A stretch of 33,194 bases of DNA from Gracilariopsis chorda. Taxonomy: Eukaryota > Rhodophyta > Florideophyceae > Gracilariales > Gracilariaceae. Below, piece by piece: positions 1,990 to 33,194 of the stretch (the first letter of the stretch is position 1; each line of letters begins with the position of its first letter). Under the pieces are notes generated by a model. It saw only the letters and a program-made list of their open reading frames with translations. It searched no databases and had not been told where the DNA came from. Both the position numbers and the translations under genes were made by a program. The stretch lies in the NCBI GenBank assembly GCA_003194525.1, contig NBIV01000426.1, forward strand, positions 1 to 33,194, in the 5' to 3' direction.

Positions 1990-4616
1990 GCCCCAACAGC
2001 ATGATTTACATCCAGTGTGACGAGGCTCTGGGTCCCAAGGGAATATATAGAGCACCGAACCCGCAATGAAGGCTGATTTCGATGTGCTGCGAGCGATGAG
2101 GACTGTGCTTTGTGGTTACAGATGGCTATCAGTCATTGCTTAAGGGGTCTCTGAGCTTGGGCTGAACGATCGAACCGTGATATTAACCACAGAAACTGCA
2201 GAGCTTGACGTAACGCATAACCTACTTCTGACTGGTTCGTCAGAATGTTGTACGACTTATCTCTTTGTGGAATAAATAATAACATATGTGACGTTGAGCC
2301 AGAGCTTTATTCTTGTAGCCCACCTGTCATCTCAAGCCTCCAACACATCTTCATTACCATGGTTTTATCTGAAATGAGCACGAGTTCTGGAACTTGTACA
2401 GCAGATTTGCAGCCAGAAGTAGCCAAAAACAGGTGAAGAGAATACAATTCGATGCATCACAAAGCCCAGCAACGTAGCAACAAGAAGCGAGAGCAAGAAA
2501 GACGCGCTCTTTCCAAAAGAAGAGGTGAGTGTCGACGAATCTCTGCGCCTGTGTGTCAACAGATATGTTGCACCGCCTTTTTGCGAAATGGATGTGGTCC
2601 GTCCTTGCGAAGGTGGGTAAGGTGCAGATTCACGACGGAAGGAAAGTCGCAAGTGACTTTGTATGTGAGGCTACGGTCAATGGTGGCAAAGTGATACACC
2701 GCAAGACACAACGGAGCTGCTGCTATAGTTGGTGGCCGCGACCGCGTCTGTCGTTGTGGGGGTGGGGGAAGTTCAGCTTCACTGCTAGAGCGCGCTTGCT
2801 TGCATGGATGGGTGTCCAGAGAATCGTAACTCAAACGGTCTGCCAATACAGTTGCTCTTCCATTGTAACGTAGAACGCATTCTCGACAGGCCATAGCAGC
2901 AAAAAGAGCAATTTCAGCCGGGGTACCGCGTTGAATCAAACAACATCATGACTTTGACCGAAGAGTTCATCTGCAGAAACGTTGAGAATATTATCTTGAA
3001 TCAAACAAAGACATAATAAAAGTGCTTCCAGGCATATGACACAGCCGTCGCAAGCGTGCATACGAGGAAGACGTCAAAATTATCGCTTTTGGGTTGCGAA
3101 GAGAGTGGATAAGAGAACATGCTAGATGGGCGTAGCGTGTAGTAAGGTGTTGCCATAAGTATTGTGAGGCGGTTTTCGTAGTGACTGATTTAGGAGACGA
3201 AGGACGATGCGACTTTGTTAGGGGGTTTGCTGCGGATGCACGCATGAGATTGGGTATGATGACGAACCCACGAGTGGCATTCCCAAGCTCATCACCGTTT
3301 GTGTAAAACTCCTTACGTCAACAGCTCTTGCTTACCGCTTTTTGGCTCTTTTCGGATCTGCATCAACACTTGCAGTAACAATTTAAGGAAAAATTCCAAA
3401 CGTTTCCTTCACATCTGATTGTCCTCTCATATGCAAACATTCAATCTAATCTACAGCAGACTGTACTGCAACAACTGTAATGTGAGCGTGGGTTTGGATC
3501 ACAAAATGTCAGATTTTGAAATTACAAAAACTATCGAAGCATGCACATGACACAGATGACCTACCGCAGTTCGTTGAGAGTTGACCGATAAAAGCTGCAC
3601 ATGTCGCAGTTTCTGAAACTGTTGAAGAAAAATGGCTGGGATTAACCCAGCATTGATGTTGTAGAGTATTGACGGCAGTGCCCTGTTTTTCTACAGATTT
3701 TTGAACAACAAGTTTAGGATAACCACACCCTTTTTGTACACTTCGAAAAATATCGTCATGGGGCTCGGCTCTGAAAAATCAAGTTTCCAGCACCACCCGA
3801 GCTTCGAACCCGTAACCCCAACAGTCAGCCCAACAGTTTTTTACTGGTCCACGACTGCGCTGTGCGCCTCCGCTTCCCACGATGGTTATGTTCTGGGCCT
3901 CCGTGGTGGTCTGTATTTATATCAGGTTTTCATAAACAAGTATAGTCCGAGTTTTCATTCCGATTTCCTAATATCAATCTGTGGGCAGGTAGCTGCATGT
4001 TTCGTTAGCTCCTTAGTTCGCTACAACGAGGAGTGCCATTTAAATAATAGAGAGATGTATTAAGATCTGGCAACGTTAGATTTCTTTATCGATGAAATTG
4101 GAGGTGCTCGAGTGGGCACCGTAACTCTGTTTGCCATTTGTGTGCAAGCATCGAGCACCAAACTCCAGTACGTGCGTGGTTCCTTCACAGGCAGCACTTC
4201 GGAAGAGACAAACGTATCTTATTGTACTGAGACCGGTATCGAATGTCTCGATGGCAGAAGCGCAAGTACCACAGAATCGTCATCAGGAAAGGCGTCGTTA
4301 AGCCGCATCAACAGAGCCGCAGAAACAGGGCTAATAGTGACCGCGGTTGTATCTATGCGAACGTACACAAAGATACTATAACTCGACTGGCGAACGACTA
4401 GTGCGAATGGTCCACAGAAGGAGCGCGCAATGGTGTAAAACGTAGAGGGGTGAGAATTCCAGGGGAAGAAGGGTTACTGCCTGGGGAGGACATGAAGCGA
4501 GAAGATGTGTAGAACGAGAGAGAGAGTTGTCGTCTTATAGAGGTTCAAGGTGGGGGCGACATCGGCGCCTTTGAGTACCCATTTAGAGGGTGATCCTTCG
4601 TGTCATCAGCCTGCAC
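1990..4616. other. Long stretch with no supported gene
   Basis: About 2.6 kb in which I can support no gene. Open frames of 60-130 codons occur on both strands (for example 2529-2873 +, 2556-2939 -, 3701-4063 +, 4112-4381 +), but none shows a recognisable motif or a convincing start. A fragment near 2452-2530 encodes a Lys/Arg-rich string resembling the basic linker of the decayed gene upstream and may be its debris. A short near-repeat, TTGAATCAAACAA, occurs at about 2931 and 2996. The one structured feature is the tRNA-like stretch annotated separately. Confidence 0.5.
3795..3865 (-). repeat. tRNA-like / possible SINE head (Pol III A and B boxes)
   Basis: On the minus strand AGCGCAGTCGTGG (3849-3861) resembles a tRNA A box, and GGTTCGAAGCTC (3799-3810) resembles a B box. 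Their spacing of about 40 nt is right for an internal RNA polymerase III promoter. Four of five pairs of a T-stem can be formed around the TTCGAAG loop. The flanking sequence does not pair into a 7-bp acceptor stem, and the anticodon stem is poor, so this is not a functional tRNA. A tRNA-derived SINE fragment is the simplest reading; a chance match is possible. Confidence 0.3.
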
Positions 4617-7600
4617 TATTCAATGGATGCACCCTCTGTGCGCGTTAGACAAGCCCCAAGACCTCCCAAGTTTACCATCGAAGCCATCTTGTTCATCTGC
4701 GCCAGGTGGAGATCCAAGACCCACTCAATGGGGTCTCCGTGAACCTAATTCTTCGCACCCGCACTGAAAGGGGCACGTCTTTCTTGATGTCCGGCCATTG
4801 ACCATGCTTCAGACCCTCGACCTCAGTAATCAGCGTAGCCATAGCATTCTACACCTCCACAAAAAAGTGGTACTTGTCGGCCTTCAGTGTTGCGATCACG
4901 CCCAGCATCCCATCCGTAGTTCGGAAGATCATCGTGTTCACCGCCGCTGGCTCGTTTTCCGCCAATTGCATCACCAGTGATCCATGTTCGATGCCATTCA
5001 CTCTCGCTACCAGGTGGAACTGTCCTACTCTTTCGAGACGCTGCCGTTCACCATCAGATGTAGCACGAGAGTTTCGCTTGCATGTGTACAAGTGCTTTGA
5101 GTGGTGAGCGACAATATACGTGTCGTCGTCCAACATTTCCATCGCCATCACCCATACCACCCCATAATCCCTTGCCAGCTGCTCTACCCGATAGTTATCC
5201 CCTAGCTTCTTGCAGGACAGTAGAGCCACTGACCTCACAACGTCTCCAACAAGTACAAAGTCCCCACGCAGTTTCATTCGATACGCCAGAATATGTCCCC
5301 GATGTCTGTCCAGCTGTTGAATACTTAGCATACAGTCTTTTCGTTCAGAAACCGAGGGCAGCCGCACCTCCGGACCCACACGGATAATCAACATTCCGTT
5401 ATGCGAATTCATGTTGTACACAGCGCCGTGACACTTTTGTTCCGCTACCAGAACCGCCTTGCCTTCGATGATCCGGAAAATCAGTACCCGCCCACTATTC
5501 GGATCCTCTTCGGTTGGCAAATCGAATTCTGTTCCAACGACCAGGAATTGTTCGTTCTTGTCAATTACGCTTTCAGTGAAAGTAGTAGCAAGAATCGAAC
5601 TTCCGTTCTCCATAGGTTTTAGCTTATACTTGGACAATGTATCGTACCTTGAATCATCGATGATTCGCACATATCCTTCCCATACGTCATCACCGACATC
5701 TTCAATGGCTTGTGTCTCTGTGGTCACGCCAAAGCATTTTGCCATTTCCATATGAGTAATCTGACGTGGTTGCTCACCTAATGGTATTGAGATAATATGT
5801 AGTTTTTGGATCTCATCCACCTCACCCAGGTGCAGTCCGTTTTCTGTAGCAATTGCCAACGAGTCCGGGAAAGCTTCGGTGTCAAATCCACAAACTCGGG
5901 TAAGCTCTTGAAGGTTCACGTTAGACACTAGCAGTTTCCCACCCCCAGTGGCAGAGTAGACTACTGTTGGTCGGTCGCTTGCTGCAAATACATGATTTGC
6001 CCCACCGCTCCTGAAGATGCTCAGCTGGGCAGGCTGGGTACCTATACTCAGTTTTCTTCGCTCTGGAACTATGGAAACCGGCATTGATGATGAATCCAAT
6101 TCCTCAGAAGATGCTGCGGCCATCGCTATTTCGCCGCTCACCGAGTAGGTCAGAAGGAACCCGTCCCAAAGGTCAACAAGCAGATAATGCTGACCTTCAA
6201 GGGACGCTAAGAGAACTGAACGAACGATGACATCGCCACCCAGTTCTATACTTTCAAGGGCTCGTAAAGATGGAAGAGTGACCAAATTCACTACCGAACT
6301 TTCATTCACTTCAGCCCATAGTCCAACTACAGCCAGATATGCCGCACCCCTGCTTTCCGTAGAATCTTCAATATCTGTCATTTGATTTGTTGATTGCAAG
6401 AAATTGCAATTCAAACAAGAAACCTCTCTGTCCATCTTTGTCAGTGTAACTTCCACTAGAGTCTTGTTATCTGGCTCAACCTTCAGGAGAATAAGATACC
6501 CACCAGTTGTGGCGAAAAGAAGCTGATGGATATTCTTGGACGCAATTGAAATCCGCATATTTGGGGGAGGGACCCAGCTGTAGGTCGGCTGAGACGTCAT
6601 TGTTCTATAATCAGTGAAATGAACACCTTTTGCTGTAACTTGAACGATGATAACACCCTTCATGATTGCCGCATACAGTGTAGGTGTATCCTCGTCTAAG
6701 CCTGGTAAACTTGCCGGAGCCATTTCATCCGCGCTAATAATTCCTAATGTCCTGATGGCAGAAGTGAAGGTTTGGAGGAGGTAAGAGTCATATCTGTCAA
6801 CGATATGTCTCTATAAGGATCACATGTCTTTAATACCCGGCAGGTCCTCTGATGCGTGTTCCGACTTGCTTATTCCGTTTCCGATGAACTGTAAAGAACC
6901 GCCTTTCCCTGCTCCAGAGCATGTCCCAACTTGTCTTTGACCGTGAGGCAAATAGCCCATGCCTCCAACAATGCAAAAGTCTAGAATAGGACCGAGATGA
7001 GGGTATGTTTGCACAAGTTCGACGTCAGTACCGTTCTCCTTATTTCGTTCACGACCGAGATGGACGAGATTTGAATCACCTTTCTTTGCCCTAATAAAGG
7101 CAAAAGCACTGTCACGGTTGGAGATGCAACAAGGTACACTGGTTTCCCCAAGACGTTCCATCTTGATTCGCCTAACTACTTTGTTCTGATCTGTCACTAG
7201 AAGAAGAACACTGCGTTCTCCCTTATGATCCCCGAAAAGATATTGTGTGCCTTGGGCATCAACCCTTCCCACAGCAGTGATAATTGTTTTTTCAAATTAT
7301 TGCGCCGTATAATCTCCGTTTGTGTTCATGTAGGTGACAAGATCATCACCAAAGACCATCATCACCAAAGACCAAAGCACCGCATATGGGTTCTGAAACA
7401 GCAAATAGTTTTTTAGATGTAACATCAAGCTTGCCTTTTTTCGATGTGGTAGGCGCGATATCTTGGTCGCTCATCCGAGTGACGTAGTTCGCATTTCACG
7501 ATTACCGTTTCCCCGCCAACACAAAATGGCGATTGTGAGATTCTATCAGCAGTGCAAGGAGACCATGTCGAGGACGCTTTTTTCCGTGAGGCGGACTTTA

Positions 7601-14900: not shown

Positions 14901-15397
14901 TGACAGCATCTTCATCGGAATTAAGGTCTTCCAATGACCCCAAATGTGTGCTGGCCGGGGCGATTTCTCGATTTGGAATGACAGCAAGCATTGTGCAAGG
15001 TCCGTTTCCTCACAGTTTACCGAAGCTTATCGCATCTACTCGGATTTCTAAGTTCATAGCTACTCTTCATGCACGAGACTTGCAAGCAGTCCTTAAGTTT
15101 CGTGAAGACTTTAAGGAAGACCTGAAGGGCGTTCTGGCTGTGTTTGTAACAACAAAGCATTCAGTCTCCGAAATGGCTCGTGCAACCAGATTGATGACAC
15201 CTACATCAGTTGGTCTGAAAGCTCTATTCTCAACACTGGCTGTTGATTTGCTCTTCGAGGATTCCAGAGTCGTTCTAACAGGGTTCCATCCGAAGGATAC
15301 TTCGATGAGTGTAACATACTTGCTTGACGGATTATTCTTCTCAGCTGTCACGTCTGAGGCAGACAGCGCTGCTTTACTACCGTTCACAAAAGGCTAA
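8901..15397 (+). pseudogene. Csf1/Tweek/KIAA1109-type bridge-like lipid transfer protein, broken
   Basis: Proteins of this family (yeast Csf1, human BLTP1) are very long hydrophobic-groove proteins anchored by an N-terminal membrane helix at ER contact sites, where they move phospholipids. Here an N-terminal helix (about 8957-9010) is followed by RFLGRIVSFFINR and a conserved-looking block ending ILQILWWR, which resembles the family N terminus. The remaining ~2,000 codons are weakly conserved, as is normal for the family. ATG 8901 is in another frame from the helix; a one-base shift in the CT-rich run near 8950 would join them. Further breaks: TAG 10595; frame 2 to 1 near 11230; TAG 11359; frame 1 to 2 in an A6 run near 11457; frame 2 to 1 near 12115; frame 1 to 2 near 13395; TAG 13445; TGA 14564. 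No splice sites with matching phase explain them, except a marginal 30-nt GT-AG stretch at 10594-10623. The gene is shorter than family norms (about 3,000-5,000 residues) and ends just before a transposon, so truncation is likely. Confidence 0.7.
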
Positions 15398-15669
15398 TTC
15401 TGGAAAAAGGTCGAAGTTGGAAACTGTCCTTCCAGACCTCATACCTTGGCCATACTGGCTCCGATTTCAAATCTAATCATCTCATCACATTTGTCTCAAT
15501 GAGACAAAGAGTTTGATATGAAAAAGGCGGAACCTTCAAACAGTAGACGCGCGATACCAATAAAAACGTACTGGACGGTGTCATCTTTATTGCACATGAG
15601 CTTCTTTCCATTCCCCGTAGGTCACTGTTCCACACTCTCGAGACCTTGTTCCCTCCACAAATCTTTGCG
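15398..15669. other. Junction between the Csf1-type gene and the transposase gene
   Basis: After the TAA at 15395 the same frame stays open for about 34 codons to a TGA near 15500, so the original gene may have run slightly further. A perfect 8-bp hairpin (TTTGTCTC-AAT-GAGACAAA, 15490-15508) follows. I could not find a terminal inverted repeat or target-site duplication for the transposon here, so its left edge is unplaced. Confidence 0.4.
15490..15508. repeat. 8-bp perfect hairpin near the transposon edge
   Basis: TTTGTCTC (15490-15497), loop AAT, GAGACAAA (15501-15508). It lies between the end of the broken lipid-transfer gene and the transposase start. It could be a transposon subterminal structure or chance. 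Confidence 0.8.
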
Positions 15670-17661
15670 ATGGCTCTGTCCATGCGCAAACAAGCCAACC
15701 GACTTCAAAAAAGTCGAGTCAGAGCGGAGCATCAACGCAGAATGAAACAAAACGCCGTAGTAATGCTCCAAGACAAAAACACTAAACACAAAATCCGCGA
15801 TATCGTCACAGCCACCCATCTCAGCAAAAGCACAGTTTATAACCTCAAACACCTTATCGAGAGCAAAGCGTACGACCGATTAAACCAACAGCTTACTGAC
15901 AATTCATGTTCACGCAAAGGAGCCCAAACGGTTTTAACTCACGAAGAAGAGAGTTTGATTGTTCACAGGTTGAAAGAGGCAGCAGATCGCGGATTCGCAG
16001 TTGATAATGACACATTGAAGTATGTTATGGCTCGCGTAGCGGCCGACCGCAGAACAGGATGGAAAAATAATGTCCCATCAGACGATGCTGTTCGATCTTT
16101 TCGCGCCAGGCATAGAGATTTAACGTTCAAAACCCATTATCCGAAGGATAATGCAAAGCTGAAAGGAGAGACATACGAACACATTCAGACTTTCTTCGAT
16201 GTGGTTGGTAAGATTGGTGAAGAAAATCGTGGTCTCCTTGATGATCCATCTCGGATATGGAACATGGATGAAACGGCTGTGGATGCAACGTGGGGCAAGG
16301 CAACCAAAGCCTATGGCTCGAAGTCTTCAAAACAGGGCGGATGCAAGGTCGCCCAAAAGATGCAAGGTGTAGACAAACACATTACCGCCGTTCTTGTGTG
16401 CTCTGCATCCGGAAAGAAAGCCCCTCCATTCTATATCGTTGCCGGAAAAAAAGTAATGCAGCACTGGATGGAACCCCTTCCCGGTATTTACAAGAAGAGC
16501 GCTGCAGTTTGTAACGAGTTCCAGCGGCCGAACTGGATGCCTGCGGATGCTGTGGTGAAGTGTACAGAAAATGGTTCGATGGATAGTCAGATTCTAGAAG
16601 GTTTCATGAAACACGTTAACAACTTTGTTCGAAGGCATGTTCCAGAGTCGAGTTCTTACCTTCTAACGATGGATGGCCACTCGTCGCGAAAGGGCATTCG
16701 CTGGGTTATGGAATGTGAGAAAAACCGATGTATCCCAGTTATCAAGCCGGCAAACACCTCACATATACTCCAACCGTGCGACCGTCGTATCAACAAAACA
16801 TTCAAAGAGTCGCTTCGATACCTAAGAGATCAGTTCGCACGCTCAGTAGTTCCTGAGACTCGTACACCTCGATTCAACCTTGCGTGTGCAGTTTATGCAC
16901 ATCAGACAATCTCCCCTCCAATCATCAAGTCCTCTTTTGAAGACACAGGCCTGTTTCCGTTCAACCCAAATTTTGCGAAAAGGTACAAACGAGAGGATCC
17001 GGAAGAGGTTAGTGTGAAGATCGCTTCGGTTGAAAACGTTGCGGACAGAACTCGCAATGTCCAAAAAAGACGAACAGATGCAGAAGTTTGCAGCAAAGCT
17101 CGTCACATTCTAGCAACGGAAACAAGCGATGTGATGGTATGCCACAAACTTTTCCAACTTCTTCGAAGCGCAGAAACAGCTAGTAGCATCATAATGAATA
17201 CAATAACCCCGATTAAGACCGAGAAAGAGGTATTGGGAGACATTCATTTACAACGAAAGTTAGCCATGTTAGACTGTGGAGCGCCGGCGGAACACAAAAC
17301 GGTAGCCCAAATGCTTGAAGAACGTCGAAAGAAAGAGGCTGATAAACTTGAAAAGGAAAAGAAAACTCAGCTTGAAGTGCAGCGCAGGGCGATTGAACGC
17401 GAAAAGAAGGACGCTCAAAAAGTGCAAAGTCAAGCACAAAAGGTTGCACGACAAGCAGAACGTGCCGAAAAGAGAGCCCTTATGCACTCTTTAAAAGTTC
17501 GTGAACGTATTGTTAAGAGTGGAGTGCGAAGCGTTAGACGGATGCGGCGATCGGTTTGGGCTCGAAAGTTGCCGGGTGAGAAAGCGAGCTTGTTGGACGC
17601 TATGCAGACGGCTGCGGAAGTTGTGGCGGACTTGGTATGCGGTGCTATGGGTGTTGAGTAG
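15670..17661 (+). CDS. Pogo/jerky-type DDE transposase (DD35D), intact
   Basis: This 663-residue frame starts at the first ATG (15670) and ends at TAG 17661. The N terminus (about residues 1-70) is basic and carries a helix-turn-helix-like segment (DIVTATHLSKSTVYNLKHLI). The catalytic core has the three expected acidic residues: D200 in IWNMDET, D335 in LLTMDGHSSRK and D371 in ILQPCDRRINKTFK, the last two separated by 35 residues. This is the DDE_1 (pogo, Tigger, jerky, CENP-B) pattern. After the core there is a long Lys/Glu/Arg-rich, probably coiled-coil tail (about 540-625). No stop or frameshift interrupts it, in contrast to the decayed genes on either side, so it is probably a recent insertion. 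Terminal repeats were not found. A domesticated host gene cannot be excluded. Confidence 0.9.
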   Translation: MALSMRKQANRLQKSRVRAEHQRRMKQNAVVMLQDKNTKHKIRDIVTATHLSKSTVYNLKHLIESKAYDRLNQQLTDNSCSRKGAQTVLTHEEESLIVHRLKEAADRGFAVDNDTLKYVMARVAADRRTGWKNNVPSDDAVRSFRARHRDLTFKTHYPKDNAKLKGETYEHIQTFFDVVGKIGEENRGLLDDPSRIWNMDETAVDATWGKATKAYGSKSSKQGGCKVAQKMQGVDKHITAVLVCSASGKKAPPFYIVAGKKVMQHWMEPLPGIYKKSAAVCNEFQRPNWMPADAVVKCTENGSMDSQILEGFMKHVNNFVRRHVPESSSYLLTMDGHSSRKGIRWVMECEKNRCIPVIKPANTSHILQPCDRRINKTFKESLRYLRDQFARSVVPETRTPRFNLACAVYAHQTISPPIIKSSFEDTGLFPFNPNFAKRYKREDPEEVSVKIASVENVADRTRNVQKRRTDAEVCSKARHILATETSDVMVCHKLFQLLRSAETASSIIMNTITPIKTEKEVLGDIHLQRKLAMLDCGAPAEHKTVAQMLEERRKKEADKLEKEKKTQLEVQRRAIEREKKDAQKVQSQAQKVARQAERAEKRALMHSLKVRERIVKSGVRSVRRMRRSVWARKLPGEKASLLDAMQTAAEVVADLVCGAMGVE

Positions 17662-18401: not shown

Positions 18402-20073
18402 TAGGGTCGTCCGGGGCGTAACCACCAGCGAGGCGGTAGGCCAACGCGTCCGCCATGGTGGTGACATCCCCCGATACCTCGGCAGCGCTAAGACCGGCAC
18501 CCCGGAGGAAACGTGCGATGATTTCGTTTTCATTCGCCGTCACCCCGCTGGGGATTGAAGGTCCGGCACTTGCCGCCGAAGGGTCAGCAGCCGGCTCGGC
18601 CGGAGATGCCCCCTCTGGGAATGCTTCCGCGCTAGCGCCGGTTTCCTCTACGTCCATCTCCCCGGGTTCTTCCGGTTCGTTATCGACCATTGGGTCATCC
18701 CCGCCGTATGCGCGGTAGTAGTCGTCGGAATCGACCTACCCCACCGGGTGGTCTTCCGGCACATGCCGGGGCGTATCGCGAAGCTCGCGCGCCTCCTCGG
18801 AGGAAATTTCCCGGAACTCCCAGGGGTCGAAGTAGATAAAATCCCCCACAAGGGCGGTGTTTCTACCGAGTCCCGGACCACCGGTGTTACCGCTACCGCC
18901 ATCCAGACGACCGCTTTGCTCCAGCGGGACCTCACTCCAGCTAACGCTGTCGATGTACCCAAGTAATTGGAGGACCTCTTCATTGTTGGCCTGGCCCCCA
19001 AGGGGGATGCGAAGATCCAGGTTTCGGATCGCTGCCCGCACACGCGGTTGAAGGAACCAGAGACGATACTGGTCGTACGCCTCGTTGAGGATATAAGCCG
19101 CACTGCAGGCCGCCCACTCCGTAACCACTACGGACCACAACCCCGACCGGGGATCCTGCATGAGCAGCGACCCGAGGTACGTAAGTACCGGCGGGAGTTC
19201 TATGTAGCACCCCCGGCAGGCTTCATGGAAGCGCCACCACTCGGGGAGTGCTACATACCGACCTAGTCGGTGAGGCGGCGCAATCCGCTCTATCTCCACG
19301 TTCTGATACGGGATAAAATACCCGAATCGGGATCGCCAACGCCGCTCGTAGCGGATGAAGTTTTGGAGAAAGTTGGACCGGTATTGCCGGGGAAGGTACC
19401 TGAACTCCGCCCGAATAATCGGTCGCTCCCAGCAAAGGGCCTCTTGCCGCGCTGCGGGGAAATTCCTCCAAGCGAGGGTCTCGAGGCGGAACAGGTTCTC
19501 GCCGTACCCAATCTCCCCGCGAGTGCGGAAGTAGCTAACGTCGAAGCCAAACTCCGGTGGGACCGGTACATCGAATGGAGCCCGGCTCTGCCGTTGATAC
19601 GCCATGCGCGTCAGCGCGGTCTGTGCCGCAGTGACGGTCTCGCCCGAGTTTCTTCGGAGGTGGTGACGCGGAATCGCAATCCGGTGACGCTAATCCCATG
19701 ATGTGGTGACTGCTCTGGGCAGATCCCCCGGAAGGGTGTCTGAACCATCCGCATAAGCGGTGACCAATCCCTCATTGAGGACGGCGACCGGGTGAAACCA
19801 CGGGGCAAGGCGCAGGCGCGACGCGTGATTCCGATTCATCGGGTTGAGCCCCACCAGGGTGTTGTAAGTTGGCCAGTTGGACACCGGAGTGGTTCCGGAG
19901 GACACCACCGAAGGTGGTAGTGCGAAGGGATGGTCGGCTGCCGCAGCCATATTCCCCGGTTGTACCGGATTTCGATCGCCCTGAGGCAGGGGAACTGACC
20001 GGAAACCGGTGGTGTATCGCCCGAGAAGTCTCGACGGTTGGCTGTGGTTGTTGATATTGTTGTCGTCGTTCAT
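18402..20073 (-). CDS. Unrecognised protein of the hairpin insert, with two in-frame TAG codons
   Basis: I do not recognise this protein. One reading frame runs from ATG 20073 (in-frame TAA 12 codons upstream; context GGGAAAAATGA) to the insert edge at 18402 with no frameshift. It is interrupted only by TAG at 19690-19692 and 18736-18738. The product has an Asn/Pro-rich N terminus, then a Trp/Tyr/Arg-rich core of about 290 residues (19605-18739) that looks globular, then an acidic Ala/Pro/Glu-rich linker and a short helical segment. It has no stop of its own: beyond 18402 it runs into the transposase tail and ends at 18316. This suggests a 3'-truncated copy of a longer coding RNA. A structural (capsid- or gag-like) role would suit the architecture, but no motif proves it. 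The TAGs could be decay or programmed readthrough. Confidence 0.55.
19201..19257. repeat. Branched long-range stem inside the insert ORF
   Basis: TATGTAGCAC (19201-19210) pairs perfectly with GTGCTACATA (19248-19257). The stem encloses GCTTC-ATG-GAAGC (19220-19232). A further stem, CACTC-GGG-GAGTG (19238-19250), competes for the inner bases of the closing helix. This is coding sequence, so codons and pairing are satisfied together. Confidence 0.8.
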
Positions 20074-21035
20074 TTTTCCCTTTTGGAGGGTGGCTGTTGT
20101 TGTCGTTTATGTGCTTGGTGACTCTGGTGCAGAGGGATTTACCGGAGAACCGGAGACAAAGCACGCGCTTTTATCACCCATTTTCGTCCGGGAATTCTCC
20201 GCGTCCGCGGTCGTTTTTCCGTCTTAAGGGGGGGGATATGAAGTGCAACGCCCTCAGGGAGGGATTCTGGGTACTTGAACGCTTTCCCGATATTATCGGT
20301 TGTGTAGTGTGTATATGAACTACGCCCCACAATGGTGGGTATGGACACGTGGGACACGGTTTTGGGTCAATTGGCGGTTGGCCACAGTAGTGGATGTTGC
20401 CACGGAATGTGGAGTATTTTAGTTAATTTTATTTATTATTTTCACACCCATTTCTGGGAAGCTAGTACTTAGTGCGACGGCGCACTGCCGTCGCACCAGT
20501 AAACCTTCCCCAACAAGGGACCCCAACCTGGGGAATTGGCTCTGAGCTTTACCGCCTCCGCGTGTTCTCAACTCCTCCTTGGAGGGAAGCACCGTAGTGT
20601 ACGGAAGTTCACCCCCCTTGCACATCTAAAGGAGACCCATCATTGGGAGTACTAATTGTTCCAATCATATTGGTGTTTCGCCCTGTATAGGGAGTCTTGT
20701 CCACCGGCATTGCCGTATCTACTCGTCGCTCTCGCGACCCACTTCGTCCTTCCTCTTTCCCATTTTTAGGGTAGCACCTCCCGCTATCCGCGGCCCTCGT
20801 GTGCGCATCCGCTCACACACCCCCACTTACGTGGAAACATACCTCTACTGAGGATCACACCCCGCTCACGCGGATACCGATTCTTCGCCTTCACCTCCCT
20901 GCGCGAGTCGCGACAGGTGTCCCTGGTCTTACAAACCGGCTTCGCCGTGACACCTCTGGGAGGGCTCTACCCAACTGGGTTCACCTCGTGAGAGGAAGAT
21001 CCCGGACGTCTTTCGGTGTTTTTCCCCTTTGGGGC
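20074..21035 (-). promoter_or_regulatory. Long structured leader of the insert ORF
   Basis: About 960 nt separate the insert's outer edge from the ORF start. By eye this stretch folds into about 30 successive small hairpins, for example CCTC-TACT-GAGG, CCGC-TCAC-GCGG, CCAC-TTAC-GTGG, GTCGC-TCTC-GCGAC, CCCT-GTAT-AGGG, CCAAT-CAT-ATTGG, CCCCA-ACC-TGGGG. It contains several upstream ATGs and no sizeable convincing ORF. Such an arrangement resembles structured 5' leaders of RNA viruses or IRES-like regions, but no known IRES class was identified. Confidence 0.45.
20466..20501. repeat. Strongest hairpin of the insert: 10-bp stem
   Basis: GTGCGACGGC (20472-20481), loop GCACT, GCCGTCGCAC (20487-20496). 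An outer TACT/AGTA pairing (20466-20469 with 20498-20501) can extend the stem after a small internal loop. Confidence 0.9.
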
Positions 21036-21953
21036 ATTGCACCACAATACTGTTCCAAACTGATTCGATTTTAGCACCAAGCTCGTCCACAGTATCAAAA
21101 TGCTTAAAAACTTGATAAAAGGCCCTCACCACACACACCACACATTTTCCAATTAAATTCAAGTCTGGACTATGAGCCGGCCACTGTAACACGTCAACTT
21201 CCTTGCATACAATCCACTTTTTTGTAACCTTAGAACGATGGATAGATGCACGATCTTGCACTAAAGTCCAACTTTCACCTAATCTTTCTGTAGCAAAAAG
21301 TAAAATTTTCTCTTCAAGTAGTTTTAAATAGTCCGTAGAGTTCTGGCTACCATTCAATTCTACTACTTGCAGCGCAACATAGTAAGATATAGCTCCCCAA
21401 GCCATTACCTATCCACTTCCCATATTCCGTTTCGAAAAACATATTGGTTTGATACGTAAATCGTGCGCATACATGCATTTTCCATCGGGGCCGTCCAAAT
21501 TGAACTTGTTATCATCTGTAAAAATAACTTTCTTCCAATCGATAGGTTTAGATTGAAAGTACTTTGTAGCAAACTCCATCCGTTTAATTTTGTGTGCTAT
21601 CTTCATTTAAGGGCCTTTCACCATTTTTCTGTACGTCAAGTGTTGAAATTTGTAAATTATCTGCTGTATTGGACGAGTCGTTACTAAAAGTTGCATGTAT
21701 TGACAAATGTCATTTCCACTGTTTTTTTGATTAGAGTTTTGCAAAATATCCGCCGATCTGTTTGTTTTGTAAGCTTTTGGTTATTAGCTCGCGAATACTT
21801 TCGGCTGGATTTGTTCGAGTTGTTTAAAAAATTTTCAGAGGCTCTTCTAGAGCGTTTGATAGCCTCTGCAATTTCTTCTTGGCTGACTTGCTCGTGGTGT
21901 AGGGCTAAAATGATGCCTTTTTCCCTGTCCGTAAGGGAATTGCCGCGGGGCAT

Positions 21954-22771: not shown

Positions 22772-23908
22772 TCATGCGTCGAGTGCAGTACAAGGGTAGT
22801 GTTGGCGTCTAGCAAAATACAACAGCAATTGGCGCACCTCCGATGGATCGTTCACGCGCAAGTCCGCAACCGTCAGTCGAGTCGAGTGTGTCTCCGCCAC
22901 AATCACCGAAACGCCCCGTCCCCTCAAAACCTTGAACGCATCTTCGTCCGTAAGATCATCACCCACATAAATCGGCAACACATCCTCCCCGTCCATCTTC
23001 ATTGCCTTCAACAGATACTCCACCGCCTTACCCTTGTTCCACGCCACGCGCGGTCTCAGCTCAAACACCATCTTCCCGCGAGTCAACGCCAGGTCGTGCT
23101 GCTTCGCCACGCCGTTCACAAAGCTTTCAATCGCCCCTATTTGGTCGCCTTCACATTTGCGGTAATGAAATGACACCGATAGCGTGTTGTCCTCCACTGA
23201 AGCGCCAGCGTACTGCCTCAACCGTTTCTCCATATCCGTTTTCGCCGCCACCAGCGACGGCCGGTACTCAAATGCCACCCGATGCGAAATGTCACCCACG
23301 CCCGCCAGCTTTCCATCAATGTCAAACCCATGAGAACCAGCGTAAACCACATTGCTCAACTTCACAAACGACATAATCTTGCCTTTAGACCGACCGGTCA
23401 CAATAGCCGTGGTATAGCGTGACGCCACCTCCCGCAACACCTGCCTCGTCGCCTCCGGTAAAAACGCTCGATCAGGGTCGTCCACAATAGGCGACAGCGT
23501 TCCATCGTAATCGAGGAACAACACCACACGACGACCTTCTCGCAAAACTTCTTCAATACGCTCCAAAGCGTTTGGCAAACACGTTGCCAGTCGAAGCGTC
23601 GAAGCTGCCGAACACATACTAGTACCGTTAGGACAACTTCCGCCACTGCCACCGCCCCCATGGGGCGCGCTTCCAGCACCGTCGCGCAGTGCAAGTTGTT
23701 CGGCACCAGCGCCCATGGCGCACCGCTTACAACGTTCGATTCCGCCTGCAACCGACGAGCAATGTGTCAAGGGTGGCGTATGCCTAGTCGAGATTGAACT
23801 GCACAAAGGTTGAAGAGTTGCGGCCGTAGCACCGCCTCCAACCCCCCCACACGAAGTACCCCCACCACAAGGCGTCGGCGTGCACGACAAAGCCCTCTGC
23901 GGCCGCAT
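22772..23908 (-). CDS. Trehalose-6-phosphate phosphatase
   Basis: This enzyme removes phosphate from trehalose 6-phosphate, the second step of trehalose synthesis. It is a HAD-superfamily protein: motif I LFLDYDGTLSP is at about residue 131 from ATG 23908 (nucleophile and acid Asp in DxDGT), then TGRSKGK, SHGFDI, NKGKAVEYLL and the Mg-binding motif YVGDDLTDEDAF (about 314). The C-terminal 250 residues form the whole catalytic domain and are intact; the stop is TGA. No trehalose-phosphate synthase domain is fused. The start is uncertain: the frame is open upstream to about 24083, and that extension encodes a hydrophobic segment (GVCICIALFFGV) that could be a signal anchor, but it has no ATG, so an upstream exon is possible. 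The region before the catalytic domain is Gly/Ser/Cys-rich and low in complexity. Confidence 0.92.
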   Translation of the reverse strand: MRPQRALSCTPTPCGGGTSCGGVGGGATAATLQPLCSSISTRHTPPLTHCSSVAGGIERCKRCAMGAGAEQLALRDGAGSAPHGGGGSGGSCPNGTSMCSAASTLRLATCLPNALERIEEVLREGRRVVLFLDYDGTLSPIVDDPDRAFLPEATRQVLREVASRYTTAIVTGRSKGKIMSFVKLSNVVYAGSHGFDIDGKLAGVGDISHRVAFEYRPSLVAAKTDMEKRLRQYAGASVEDNTLSVSFHYRKCEGDQIGAIESFVNGVAKQHDLALTRGKMVFELRPRVAWNKGKAVEYLLKAMKMDGEDVLPIYVGDDLTDEDAFKVLRGRGVSVIVAETHSTRLTVADLRVNDPSEVRQLLLYFARRQHYPCTALDA

Positions 23909-25244
23909 ATCGTCGGCCCCTGCCTTCAACACAACCGTTCGTTCAAACAGACGTCTAGACCCCACCCCAAAAAAAAGCGCAATACAAATGCAAACGCCGT
24001 TCAAAACTGCCGTGCGCCTCAACCCGCCTTCGTCGTGGTCCCGACCGCCAAGTGCGCAGTTATAACGACACGACCCGGGCACAATTTACAACCGCCCTTG
24101 CCAACTCTTCGCAGCCCAAGAACAGGAGCGCACCACGCGCGTGCGAAGCGGCGACAGCGGCGCCCAATTCATCCACGCGCGCGGCCGCAGTGTAAACCTG
24201 AGCGAGAAGCGAGTGCGGGCGAAGAGCGTGCGCGTGGCAGACGCTCAACAACGCGCTGGCGCCACGCATGAAATAGCGCAAACCCATCAGCGTCGAATCT
24301 GGCGCAATCTGCCTCCACGCGCGCGCGCGACGTGCGCACTTGTGTGGCTCGCGCGCATCGCGTCCCTCACCTTCACGATTGACATGTCCCTCTCCTCTGC
24401 CCACCTTCCACTGCGCCACCGCAGTCGCGCCGCCCGTCTTGCCGGCCCGCCTCCGTCAACAGGTGCGTGTCCCCGTCATATGATTATTCTCGCAGTGCCT
24501 TCCCGCTGCAACCTGCTGCAACGTCCGCCCCCTCAATCATCCAATTGTTTCACACGCAGAAGCAGCAGCAAAAACACATCGCAGACTTTCTCGCATGCTC
24601 CACTTGTTGAGCTTCATTCACCCGCTGCGCCATACAATACCTTAATCTATAAAGCCACTGGTGTTAAACCTTTAAACCCACCTCAAAGAACGCCTCTCTC
24701 GCATCGCACCCCTGTTGGCCCGGCCCCACTCCGAACCACATTCCACTCCGCCCACCGTCGTCGTGTCCGCCACTCCGCCATCCTATCCACCAAACTACGA
24801 ACTGGAAGCATCACCCCACCCAAGCCACACATTCTCACACCACCCCACAAACTTCACATCGCCATTAATCACCGGCTCAACGAATACATGTTCAACTGCA
24901 CATCTCCCCCAACACAGCTTGTTTCCCAATGAGCACCTCTATCACTTACAACCCCGAATAGGCTTGTTTTCATTCTGCACTAGAACAGCTCCCTACTAGG
25001 CTCTTGAAAGAAAACGCCACGGCTCCAAAAAAGGGTACATAAGCCGCTTTATATACACGCCCATTACGTCATTCTACTCAGCCGTTCCAGGCACCGCCCC
25101 CCACCCCCACGGATTTATCTCTGTGCGGTCACAACGGCACATCCGCCCCCATCCCCAGCAAAGCTTGAAAAGTCCCATCCTTTCTGAAAAACACATTCAC
25201 ATCATATCCATTTTCGTTTTGTTCTTGGTGCATCCCTCTCAGTT
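23909..25244. other. Intergenic between trehalose-phosphatase and URB2-like gene
   Basis: This region includes the possible N-terminal extension of the phosphatase (to 24082) and its promoter. A 119-codon minus-strand frame (24060-24419) is GC-rich and unconvincing. On the minus strand a short ATG-led piece near 24387 is followed by GTGAGG, which could be a small first exon with a donor site, but I cannot place the acceptor. The plus-strand frame at 24141-24932 is a shadow of C-rich sequence. I see nothing else in 24420-25244. Confidence 0.35.
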
Positions 25245-29964: not shown

Positions 29965-31134
29965 ATTCACATCCGTCTCGGAGGGAGGCGCATCCGCCAT
30001 CCAGCCGTCAGCGAGAGCATACGCGATGCCATTTCGCGCGGCGCATATTCGGGGTGGACGTGTGCGTGCTCGGCCCACCACAAGCGCGACACATCTCACG
30101 CGCTCTCGGAGAGCGACGAGGCGAAACGACTGGTATATGAATACCGCAAACAATCGCTGACAGCAAGCCCACCAAAGCACTTCATCAACCACTTACACGA
30201 TCGCATCGGACGCGGCAAAGAATGTTACAAGCGCGCGTCAGAAGCGTTGCGGTGCGGAAAGGCGTTGGAATTACCATGGGTGCGAATTTGGAGACTTGGC
30301 GGTACGAAGTGGCGCAACGGGGATGTGGTGGTAATTGCCGCACGCGTGTTGCCGTTCGTATGGACAGTGAACGTGAATCGAGTTGTGATGATGACAGATG
30401 AGCGTAATTTACTGCGTATTACATGGGGAACTACGCAGCGACACATGCTACAAGGCGAGGAGAGTGTGGGTGTACATGTTCGCAACGGAGAAGTAGAATT
30501 CGAACTGCGTAGCTTCTCAAAGGCGAATTGCGCGGTGGCCGCTATAGGCGGCGGGGTGATCCGCATGTTTCAAAGACGTTTTTGCAAGAGATGTACGCGC
30601 GCAGCTAATGCAGATTGGGGGCGAGACGGATCAGGGCCAGGTTTGCTCGTGATAGGGCTCGTCACCCGGAAGGACGGTGCAGTGGTTGGAGTCGAAGGAG
30701 TGGGCTGGCGCTGGAGATTTTGGCGGAGATGCATCCGGGAGATTTATGCGGCGTCTACGCGTTGGAGATGTGTGGAGGCGGGGTTGTGTGTTGTCCACAT
30801 TTGGATATGCATTCTGACGGTGGCGTTTGCGCGAGGAGGCTTTCTGACGACGGGCGGCAGTCGCATCGGGCAGGACTGTGACGAACAGATGGTCCGGAAC
30901 GGGGAATTGCTCCGAATCAGGATTTGGTTGGCATTCAGGGGACGGGGATCGTTCCTTTCGCGAAGCAACAAGAGCCGAGTAGATGCGCCACCGCGACGGG
31001 CAGGTTGCTTGAGCTGGGGCGAGTGCTCGGGTGGAGACAGCTCGGGCGGAGGCGGGATGCAGGCGGAGAACGTGCTTGCGTTGGGTGAATGTGATGGTCG
31101 TAGCGTTCGGCGGCGAGACCGCGTTGAAGGTTGA
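29965..31134 (+). CDS. UPF0548 / DUF1990 family protein
   Basis: The biochemical role of this family is unknown. The conserved domain spans about 30163-30600: an N-terminal GRGKECYKRASEAL helix, a Trp-containing segment (LPWVRIW), then WGTTQRHMLQGEES and VEFELRSFSKAN, and the ending FQRRFCKRCTRAA. These correspond to the family's GTL.GH...GEE and SFSRP blocks and its terminal Arg-rich helix. The frame is stop-free from 29965, but there is no in-frame ATG before the domain, so the true start must come from an upstream exon, another frame or a non-ATG codon. After the domain the frame continues about 175 codons as Trp/Gly/Arg-rich sequence that looks non-coding, so the real 3' end is probably earlier or spliced. 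Confidence 0.7.
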   Translation: MHIRLGGRRIRHPAVSESIRDAISRGAYSGWTCACSAHHKRDTSHALSESDEAKRLVYEYRKQSLTASPPKHFINHLHDRIGRGKECYKRASEALRCGKALELPWVRIWRLGGTKWRNGDVVVIAARVLPFVWTVNVNRVVMMTDERNLLRITWGTTQRHMLQGEESVGVHVRNGEVEFELRSFSKANCAVAAIGGGVIRMFQRRFCKRCTRAANADWGRDGSGPGLLVIGLVTRKDGAVVGVEGVGWRWRFWRRCIREIYAASTRWRCVEAGLCVVHIWICILTVAFARGGFLTTGGSRIGQDCDEQMVRNGELLRIRIWLAFRGRGSFLSRSNKSRVDAPPRRAGCLSWGECSGGDSSGGGGMQAENVLALGECDGRSVRRRDRVEG

Positions 31135-31666
31135 ATCGCTGCACGAAGGGGCGCACATCAGCGGCGCGCGAGGAACGCGCAAGCACCTTTTCGCACGGAC
31201 TGCTTGGCGGCACACAGCTTGCAGACGAAGCGAGAGTCTTTGCGCTGCTGTGCGACCTGCGCCTGGCTACACTGGAAGCACTGCACTGCCAGGAAGACGG
31301 GCATTGCGCGCGACGACGTGCAGACGAGGGGCCGACTCGATTGACGGGGAAGCGCGATTGGAGCGGTCGCGCCATTTTTGCGTTTCGGGTGTGGCCTTGC
31401 GCTTCGGGAGTGGGACGCTTTTTCGTGGCGACGTGTCACGCTCGGATTGCATGCCGCGTGGTGCAGAGTCCACTGCGGACACGGTGGGGCCCTCGGCCGT
31501 TTGGCGCAGCAAGCGCTTGCGCGGTCCGTTGTGCGTGCTACCGAGTCCGACGTCAGCGAGCCGCGGCGTGAGATGCCTCTCGCGCAGCACACTCTACCCT
31601 CGCACTCGTAGCGCTCCACCCCCACCCCCCCCCCCCCCCCCATCCCACCCGCTATCTCCCCACCAA
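31135..31666 (+). promoter_or_regulatory. Upstream region of the bHLH gene, with a 17-C run
   Basis: This GC-rich region between the UPF0548 frame and the bHLH start has a run of 17 consecutive C at 31625-31641, 26 bp before the chosen ATG. The bHLH frame is open through this region, but the translated sequence is low in quality, so I treat it as leader and promoter. The C run could form i-motif or G-quadruplex-like structures and is prone to sequencing error. Confidence 0.5.
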
Positions 31667-33004
31667 ATGTCGCACCATGTCCCCGACGCCGCCGACTACG
31701 ACCTGCTCGCAGACGTGTCGCACCACGGCGCCTCCTCCTTCTTCGACCTGTTCGCCTCCACACCGCTCGACCCCCCCTCCCGCCCCAATCTAGACGCGCC
31801 CTACCTCGCAACTCCCACCGCTTTTTCCTCCGCTCCCCATTTCATTTCCCACCACGACCACCCCTCTTCCAACGCCCTGTCCCACGTCACCGCCCCCACT
31901 GCAGCTCCCGACTCGCTGCCCTCAAATATCCCACCTCCCGTCCCCCCCCCCCGCTCCCTCCGCCGCTCCCAAGCGCCGCTCCTCCTCCATCCCCGCGCCC
32001 CCCCCACCTCAACCTCCAAGCGCAGAAAACCCCGCTCAGCTGCCGTCAAGCTTGAGGATCAAACCGACGCCTCCGCCCCACCGAACCCCGCCCAATCGCT
32101 CGCAAACTCCACGTCCAACCAGCCGCAAACCCGAAACTCACACTCTCTCATTAACCCCGATCCCAACCTCAAGGACACCCACAACTCCCACACGCGCAAA
32201 TGTCGAGCAAAGGTCAACTCCAAGTTTAAGGAGCTTCTCGGCATCCTCCCCGCCCCGCCCGCCAACACGGGCATAAAGCACAAAGCCCAGATTCTCTACA
32301 CTATTCGCGTATATCGAGACATTCACGCCCGAAAAACGCTGCTTGAAGCCGAACTCGCCCTCAGTTCGCCTTCGCAACTCAATGCTTGGATTTCGAACAT
32401 TGTTTCTCGTTCGCGTTCTCTGCAAGACGCGCTCGCCCCTTACCTCTCACTAATATGCACAAAGGGAGCTTGGAAGTACTCTGAAGCATGGGTTCCATTA
32501 CAAGAGCCTGAATCTAACACAACTAACGACTCTCAGCTCCGCGCTATCACGGGCGAAAGCCGATTTCTCACCCCTGCGAATATGCTCTTGGGGCCTAATG
32601 CTAGACTTCGCCTTGGGCTTGCTGTCATTCCCTCTCTAGGAAATACCGATGACCCTGACCTGCAACCCAAACTTGAGCGCTTTCGTGACCGCAGCCGTCC
32701 GTACACTTGCAAGCCCCGAGTTGACCTCCCTGGTAGAATTATGTGCACTATGCGACCAGAGTGGTTGCCCTCGCTTGAGGATCATGAGGCCTTCCAGAGA
32801 GCAAAACTCGCCAGAGATGCTTCGCTCGTTGTATGTTTTGGCGTTCCGATCTTCATTGGCGATCACGTTGCCGCCGTCGCCGTGTTTTACGACACTGACC
32901 AGCGGACATATGATGCCAAGTGCTTAGACCTCGCTGTGCGAGTAGCTCGCATGTTGGGCAGCGCATACGGAGCGTCGGCTATGAAACGCGTTAATTACCG
33001 ATGA
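31667..33004 (+). CDS. bHLH transcription factor with GAF-like C-terminal domain
   Basis: This 445-residue protein is predicted to act in the nucleus. The ATG at 31667 begins MSHHVPDAADYDLLADVSHH, an acidic, activation-domain-like segment. A Pro/Ser-rich linker follows. The basic helix-loop-helix region is at about residues 177-225: RKCRAKVNSKFKELLGILP, then a loop, then KAQILYTIRVYRDI running into a leucine-rich helix. It lacks the classical H-E-R basic motif, so E-box specificity may differ. About residues 293-440 form a GAF-like sensor domain (DLPGRIMCTMRPEWL, then FGVPIFIGDHVAAVAVFY), suggesting ligand or redox input to a DNA-binding protein. I infer that plants and algae have comparable bHLH proteins with such C-terminal regulatory domains. 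The frame is intact, the stop is TGA, and no intron is evident. Confidence 0.8.
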   Translation: MSHHVPDAADYDLLADVSHHGASSFFDLFASTPLDPPSRPNLDAPYLATPTAFSSAPHFISHHDHPSSNALSHVTAPTAAPDSLPSNIPPPVPPPRSLRRSQAPLLLHPRAPPTSTSKRRKPRSAAVKLEDQTDASAPPNPAQSLANSTSNQPQTRNSHSLINPDPNLKDTHNSHTRKCRAKVNSKFKELLGILPAPPANTGIKHKAQILYTIRVYRDIHARKTLLEAELALSSPSQLNAWISNIVSRSRSLQDALAPYLSLICTKGAWKYSEAWVPLQEPESNTTNDSQLRAITGESRFLTPANMLLGPNARLRLGLAVIPSLGNTDDPDLQPKLERFRDRSRPYTCKPRVDLPGRIMCTMRPEWLPSLEDHEAFQRAKLARDASLVVCFGVPIFIGDHVAAVAVFYDTDQRTYDAKCLDLAVRVARMLGSAYGASAMKRVNYR

Positions 33005-33194
33005 CTCGTACTCGCGGTAATCTACCTTCGTACGTTGAAAGTCGTATCGCGCCTCTCTGCAAGCACCAATCACTGGTCTTGGCCACACAACGAACAACAC
33101 AATAACGTGCGTTTCGCCGGGTCCCAGACTTGTTTTTTTTTTTGTATAATCAGGTTTTCTGTTTATTAAACATGATCACCAGGAATCATCTCGT
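33005..33194 (+). other. 3' flank of the bHLH gene
   Basis: The stretch holds a T-run (about 33131-33142), then TGTATAAT and TTTATTAAA. No canonical AATAAA is present on the plus strand. The AT-rich end probably includes the polyadenylation region. Confidence 0.4.

Follow-up and report, generated by a model that had tools for sequence, protein, structure and literature searches.

We analysed positions 1 to 33,194 of contig NBIV01000426.1 of the red alga Gracilariopsis chorda (assembly GCA_003194525.1), a stretch of 33,194 nucleotides referred to below as the window, in which a block at 18402–21035 is crowded with short perfect hairpins. It is near certain that this block is the 3' part, made up of an antisense open reading frame (ORF) region and an 808-bp long terminal repeat (LTR), of a truncated, high-copy Ty3/gypsy retrotransposon of the chromodomain type (Table 1). 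In blastn searches, 17 loci representing 12 other copies matched the block at 97.8–99.4% identity and ended at the position corresponding to 21046 (one of them stopping 13 bases earlier, where its contig ends), and the mutual similarity of these other copies ran on past the point matching 18407. With a translated piece of the block (317 amino acids, aa), 125 of the 125 scored matches, out of 1563 candidates in the 91.3-Mb genome, were 95–100% identical, and the copy number in the genome is at least 125. Six full copies that were followed at both ends are approximately 11.5 kb long; in all six, the 808-bp LTRs of a pair have TG..CA ends and differ by one to three mismatches and one gap column, and the element is bordered by a 5-bp target-site duplication (TSD). 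The 1776-aa pol product of the copy L011 contains the Pfam domains RVT_1 (389–547), RT_RNaseH (641–742), H2C2 (876–933), rve (950–1047) and Chromo (1712–1753). No Pfam protease domain was found in it, and a DTGAGPN stretch near its start was spotted by eye. A 269-aa ORF upstream of pol (gag) gave a weak zf-CCHC_2 match (E 0.47), a stretch starting with TGG lies 3 nt downstream of the 5' LTR and a purine tract precedes the 3' LTR. Since pol encodes reverse transcriptase, RNase H, integrase and a chromodomain, and the copies carry TG..CA LTRs and 5-bp TSDs, the element belongs to Ty3/gypsy and is not the undescribed class that the initial annotation of the block had considered; nor is there any sign of an integrated RNA virus that would answer to its other suggestion, an integrated structured RNA, as the block sits in an LTR retrotransposon.

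The block had been described as containing a non-coding leader and a long open frame. Both are present, but the leader is the LTR and the frame is a broken ORF that runs antisense to gag–pol, the pol of L011 being encoded on the strand opposite to the block's open frame. In several other copies, including L011, the antisense ORF is intact, encodes 595 aa and lies between pol and the 3' LTR; in the window copy a frame change and an in-frame TAG break it up. Five relatives of the L011 product were found at E ≤ 0.01, including proteins of G. chorda and Gracilaria domingensis. The product showed no Pfam domain above the cut-off and no sequence match among solved structures, and an AlphaFold model of one relative (P0002, from five sequences) had a predicted local distance difference test score of 32 and was unusable. 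The window copy shares 99.4% identity with a copy on contig C295 (L003/L013), whose antisense ORF is likewise split, and both may derive from a single, previously broken copy. In another copy, L009, the element adjoins more sequence of the same element, inverted (positions 1–532, contig C66).

Table 1. Features of the window, with those of the retrotransposon listed first
Feature	Position	Strand	Basis or remark
Truncated 3' part of a Ty3/gypsy LTR retrotransposon	18407..21046	+ (gag–pol sense)	blastn; gag–pol missing left of 18407
Remnant of ORF antisense to gag–pol	18407..20183	-	Pieces 19690-20073, 18739-19689 and 18407-18735; end at 20183 mapped from L011, +/-2 bases
Polypurine-rich tract directly before the 3' LTR, AAGGGGGGGGATA	20226..20238	+	Read from the sequence
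3' LTR, 808 bp, TGAAG...CACCACA	20239..21046	+	Full copies begin and end with it, in direct orientation
Array of 78 non-overlapping perfect hairpins (stem >=4 bp, loop 3-5 nt)	18471..21034		Listed individually by coordinate; excess over shuffles
Perfect 10-bp hairpin in the LTR, loop of 5 nt	20472-20496		Exception to the usual 5-bp limit
DDE_3 (Tc1/mariner-type) transposase remnants	20929-21606	-	Adjoining the 3' LTR
671-aa ORF with DDE_1 endonuclease domain	15646-17661	+	Segment 15000-17633 without texture, z -0.2
624-aa open frame with RSE1/DDB1/CPSF1 beta-propeller and CPSF_A domains	4849-6723	-	
436-aa ORF with trehalose-phosphatase domain	22772-24082	-	

To measure the hairpin texture we counted non-overlapping perfect (Watson–Crick) stems of at least 4 bp with loops of 3–6 nt, taking 40 dinucleotide shuffles as the expectation. 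The block contained 85 such hairpins, compared with 34.6 (standard deviation 5.5) in the shuffles (z 9.1); 26 had stems of at least 5 bp, compared with 10.5 (z 5.9), and there was no clear excess at 6 bp or more (4 against 2.9). The initial annotation, which had put the number at roughly 75 by eye against about 35 by chance, and at more than 20 against about 9 for stems of 5 bp or more, was close in both respects. It was also correct that the neighbouring DNA lacks the pattern: for stems of at least 4 bp, the z values of nine test segments outside the block lay between −2.1 and 1.7, and the texture ends at the block edges. One of these regions, 15000–17633, had two stems of 8 bp or more where 0.2 were expected (z 5.2). 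A second count used loops of 3–5 nt and 500-nt bins and left the final 140 nt of the block uncounted; it gave 69 hairpins in the block against 25.0 expected, 160 against 177 in the window to its left and 110 against 111 to its right (270 against 288 in the rest of the window). With these loops, hairpins were in excess in the LTR (27 observed, 8.2 expected) and in the open-frame part (50 and 21.2) alike, as had been noted for the leader and the frame. The 10-bp hairpin in the LTR is possibly a regulatory site.

The texture is not confined to a 2.6-kb insert, as had been supposed. The block, with edges at 18407 and 21046, is one end, left by truncation, of an 11.5-kb element textured over its whole length. 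In L011 all 19 bins within the element had z values of at least 2.9, and the bin preceding the element had a z value of −2.3. On the far flank of L021, the bin whose first 100 bases still lie inside the element gave 2.4 and the next six gave −0.1 to 0.9. Further out, three bins at 3.6–5.2 coincided with a related element (LTR 84% identical), and one later bin, with no known match, reached 2.8. This related textured element, at 6144–7746 of L021, is inverted, has an LTR approximately 84% identical and lies about 3 kb from the full copy. Across nine copies the 3' parts had 2.95–3.18 times the expected number of hairpins, and six 5' parts had 3.26–3.63 times. Eight of the nine flanks lay at 0–1.39 times expectation; the ninth, that of L009, reached 4.25 times and is largely inverted element sequence. 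Synonymous-codon shuffling of L011 left a clear excess in pol (170 against 60.8, z 15.9), the antisense ORF (54 against 23.0, z 8.9) and gag (26 against 9.6, z 6.2), and therefore protein coding does not account for the texture. The same shuffles revealed no excess in L052, L053, L025, L029 and L045 (z −0.7 to 1.2). Equal density in dinucleotide- or codon-preserving shuffles, which had been named at the outset as grounds for giving up the pattern, was thus found neither in the block nor in L011.

Other elements were then compared. In the same genome, six loci whose pol is 66–73% identical (L049, L050, L051, L072, L073 and L075), which make up three further families on the tree, were textured at 2.14–2.57 times expectation. 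In the more distant L052 (31% identical) and L074 (36%) the texture was slight or absent, at 1.14 and 1.40 times, and 12 copia and 12 chromodomain loci showed none (0.72–1.19 times). Bacterial and archaeal genome records, several of them apparently eukaryotic contamination, supplied a further 19 loci. L065 was textured at 2.20 times (50% identical over 462 aa), and the other 18 lay at 0.88–1.41 times, including L053, on the next branch of the tree, which was not textured (1.09 times). L065 is a contig in a Robiginitomaculum genome bin that carries part of a textured gypsy element, and is probably contamination from another host. The search for homologues thus returned at least 125 copies in the genome, together with related textured families and L065 elsewhere. 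In a tree of 22 rows from 23 loci tried, in which L065 was only partly aligned and the bootstrap had not settled, the nine textured rows formed one group with support of 84/69; with this modest support, the tree fits a single origin of the texture. Overall, it is very likely that the texture is real, that it extends over the element from LTR to LTR at about three times expectation, and that it is limited to one group among the elements sampled.

The hairpins have a narrow geometry. Family A carries about 30 per kb, and its excess falls on stems of 4–5 bp with loops of 3–4 nt, as with 5-bp stems on 3-nt loops (86 against 10.8 expected) and 4-bp stems on 4-nt loops (137 against 37.6). At loops of 7 nt or more the excess was small or absent (4-bp stems, 31 against 26.3 at loop 7 and 37 against 29.8 at loop 8), with an outlier of 5-bp stems at loop 10 (16 against 7.2), and no motif stood out among the loops. 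CC..GG forms the outer pairs of 161 of 268 family A hairpins and of 36 of 72 in B; families C (17 of 83) and D (6 of 74) have it less often. The hairpins of family A are often flanked by A. Pairing is nearly all-or-none. For CC-N8-GG with 0, 1 and 2 inner pairs we observed 49, 33 and 86 cases (expected 41.4, 29.2 and 4.7), and for CC-N9-GG with 0, 1, 2 and 3 inner pairs 43, 48, 23 and 49 (expected 32.8, 34.5, 11.5 and 1.2). No type of single interior mismatch, G.T included, exceeded 1.6 times its expectation, compared with 4.7 times for perfect 5-bp stems; nor were G.U pairs enriched (GT 38 against 31.6 and TG 29 against 35.2, as opposed to 237 against 50.5 for Watson–Crick pairs). Stems are held short and longer ones avoided: stems of 6 bp or more made up 35 of the 232 stems of at least 5 bp in five elements, 28% in shuffles and 36 of 81 in the single-stranded RNA phages MS2, Qbeta and PP7. 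In family A, 32.5% of neighbouring hairpins lie 18–23 nt apart, compared with 19.3% by chance, a proportion matched in none of 2000 placements. This spacing of about 20 nt was not seen in families B, C and D, and it was dropped as a general rule.

We next compared sequence change in stems and linkers. Between L009 and L011, third codon positions differed less in stems (0.140) than in linkers (0.216; p 0.0025), and with the other reference the values were 0.113 and 0.228 (p 3.5e-6); after removal of locally diverged blocks the p values were 0.049 and 0.0019. Among ten copies, differences fixed between the L009 and L011 subfamilies were rarer per site in stems (0.0118) than in linkers (0.0259), whereas singletons, which are taken to be mostly post-insertion, were not fewer in stems (0.0364 and 0.0293). 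The contrast was significant with either reference (Fisher p 4.7e-4 and 1.3e-6); the test leaves out blocks below 80% local identity, gapped columns, positions 3300–4600 of L011 and, for L014, blocks ending beyond 6400. As fixed differences are rarer in stems and singletons are not, something acts on the stems during replication and not after insertion, that is, either selection during replication or templated upkeep. Between families, the density is retained and individual positions are replaceable. Taken together, these results make it likely that the texture is maintained by selection.

The explanation that we favour, with somewhat better than even confidence, is that selection on the folding of the genomic RNA preserves an array of short local hairpins over the full length of the replicating element in this lineage, coding and non-coding parts included. 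Structured RNA genomes had been proposed as the closest analogue, and MS2, Qbeta and PP7 indeed show the same kind of excess, with 17.0–20.5 short-loop stems per kb against 8.9–9.9 in shuffles, compared with 31.5 per kb in element A. The form that folds would be the single-stranded genomic RNA in gag–pol sense, as in these phages. In family A the predicted stem probability is higher in gag–pol sense (0.480) than in antisense (0.366; p 0.011), and on balance selection probably acts on the genomic RNA. The array may compact the RNA and offer repeated sites to the element's Gag or another RNA-binding protein during packaging; alternatively, it may block base-pairing of antisense or small RNAs with the element's RNA. 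A limit of about 5 bp would let ribosomes and reverse transcriptase pass and leave duplex-sensing enzymes without a target. A more specific proposal, which we put forward tentatively and consider possible rather than probable, is that the entire genome, from LTR to LTR, has been recoded as mini-hairpins of capped length with family-specific stem ends, recognised by a partner that has evolved along with them: a 'hairpin armour' that would package the RNA and shield it from antisense and small RNAs.

Several results weigh against selection on the folded genomic RNA. At 12 °C the difference between sense (0.498) and antisense (0.410) in family A gave a p value of 0.069, and in families B, C and D the difference in stem probability was not significant. 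Predicted stem probability was no higher than with shuffled linkers, and in places lower; the phages, too, gave no significant result. Linker tuning was dropped as a discriminating test, the phages behaving like the elements. RNAfold z-scores were modest, with means of −2.08 for gag and pol (16 folding windows), −0.78 for the block (seven) and −0.62 for the non-textured L053 (20); on both strands alike, they ranged from −0.8 to −1.0 in the block and L050 and from −0.6 to −0.7 in L053. The proposed folding of both strands therefore gave energies modestly lower than in shuffled sequence, but it separated neither the strands nor, by much, L053 from the block. An initial count with stems defined in either subfamily found no difference between stems and linkers; by its definition this class picks up stems that were gained or lost and is biased upward, and it was replaced by single-reference classes. 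Between families, only one of six comparisons at third codon positions gave p < 0.05 (0.0034) and another stood at 0.05; L050 and L051, which are nearly identical, showed no difference between stems and linkers. Only 19–20 of 117 hairpins were co-located between families at 64% nucleotide identity (3.5–3.6 expected), and covariation between families was weak, changes in both arms that pair again exceeding shuffles by 0.8–2 standard deviations.

Of the rival explanations, templated mutation fares best, although we consider it unlikely. In the manner of the snap-back mutation model, nascent cDNA would fold back on itself and the element's reverse transcriptase would copy the cDNA's own arm, perfecting near-hairpins in each cycle and leaving the texture as a by-product. 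This would account for the restriction to Watson–Crick pairs, the sharp geometry, the nearly all-or-none completeness and the untuned linkers. It would likewise explain a texture limited to one group, as is the reverse transcriptase itself, and, because it would operate solely in the lineage that replicates, the contrast between fixed differences and singletons is expected under it as well. Hairpins present in only one of L011 and L009 are mostly at least two bases off in the other copy (27 of 33 and 20 of 27), many of them in strongly diverged blocks, which is in keeping with such a process; some, however, are a single base off (3 of 33 and 7 of 27). Moreover, stems with one mismatch were not below chance, 10 of 12 ratios lying at 0.8–1.4 and the others at 0.74 and 1.56, and no excess of changes in one arm was observed (10 comparisons, all p ≥ 0.14). 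Neither the family-specific ends (CC..GG) nor the avoidance of stems longer than 5 bp is predicted by templated mutation.

We give slightly less credence still to the view that selection targets hairpins in the single-stranded cDNA, or in both strands together, and not those in the RNA. The lack of G.U enrichment and the similar fold scores of the two strands are what such selection would produce, and between L011 and L009 stem changes to G.U and to A.C were about equal in number (10 and 14, 15 and 14). The phages, however, share this lack of G.U pairs in short-loop stems: in the three genomes there was no clear excess at loops of 3–4 nt (43 against 37.5), whereas loops of 5–8 nt showed one (110 against 69.0). 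The suspicion of a DNA-level or mutational cause, raised by the strict Watson–Crick pairing, is weakened by this control, and missing G.U pairs were dropped as proof of a DNA-level process. The better folding of family A in gag–pol sense also speaks for RNA.

An integrated RNA virus or structured RNA, such as the totivirus-like CcV of Chondrus crispus, which the title of Rousvoal et al. (2016) describes as partly moved to the nuclear genome, would bring dense short hairpins of the kind found in RNA genomes, but is very improbable. The block is part of a retrotransposon whose LTRs, TSDs and pol have been identified, and the texture spans pol and LTR too; on these grounds the idea was rejected for the block as a whole. 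Pfam scans of three block pieces and the intact antisense ORF found no viral capsid or RNA-dependent RNA polymerase domain, the CcV sequence itself not being compared; no relative was found in the viral contigs scanned, and Rfam gave no family in the window at the gathering threshold. Chance, base composition or codon usage is refuted and retains a negligible probability, because, although the GC content of the block (0.585) is above that of most of the window, the excess survives dinucleotide and synonymous shuffles and the GC-rich controls, positions 30000–33194 (0.586) and L053 (0.57), are without texture.

With regard to the rest of the window, the retrotransposon seems to have inserted into or beside the DDE_3 transposase at its 3' LTR. 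To judge from its domains, the product of the 624-aa frame is probably a host splicing or DNA-repair factor.

The element has the LTRs, 5-bp TSD, purine tract and reverse transcriptase–RNase H–integrase–chromodomain order of chromoviruses (Ty3/gypsy elements with a chromodomain), and 5074 of 7975 scored candidates were related proteins. It differs from them in its element-wide mini-hairpins, a texture that the remoter gypsy elements examined lack or show only slightly, and in the antisense ORF of 595 aa that separates pol from the 3' LTR. Repbase is said to contain 1181 Chondrus crispus families. A paper on algal microRNAs (PMC12026948) offered nothing usable about the size of small RNAs in Chondrus. 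The Retand gypsy elements of plants, which are not chromoviruses, also have antisense ORFs, most of which carry TRP28 (PF04195) according to Vicient (2025; PMC11963269); this domain was not found by Pfam in the antisense-ORF protein described here, and the main text of that paper does not use the word 'hairpin'. In searches of open-licence PMC full texts we found no report of such a texture, or of genome-wide ordered RNA structure, in an LTR retrotransposon. The earlier remark that no transposon class is known to have this texture is not contradicted there, but the carrier itself belongs to a known class.

Among RNA genomes, some positive-strand RNA viruses have genome-scale ordered RNA structure (GORS). 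The texture resembles GORS in that folding extends over the genome with no single conserved element, but here the folding-energy z-score is only about −2 or weaker and the signal lies in local perfect mini-hairpins. MS2, Qbeta and PP7 (Fiersviridae) share the excess of short-loop stems across the genome, whereas element A is denser, its stems rarely exceed 5 bp where phage stems of 6 and 7 or more bp are enriched, and it is a retroelement. Because the texture surpasses that of the three phage genomes in density, breaks off sharply at an upper stem length, is consistent with one origin among the elements sampled and recurs in more than 100 close copies in a single genome, selection on RNA folding during retrotransposition can be measured directly.

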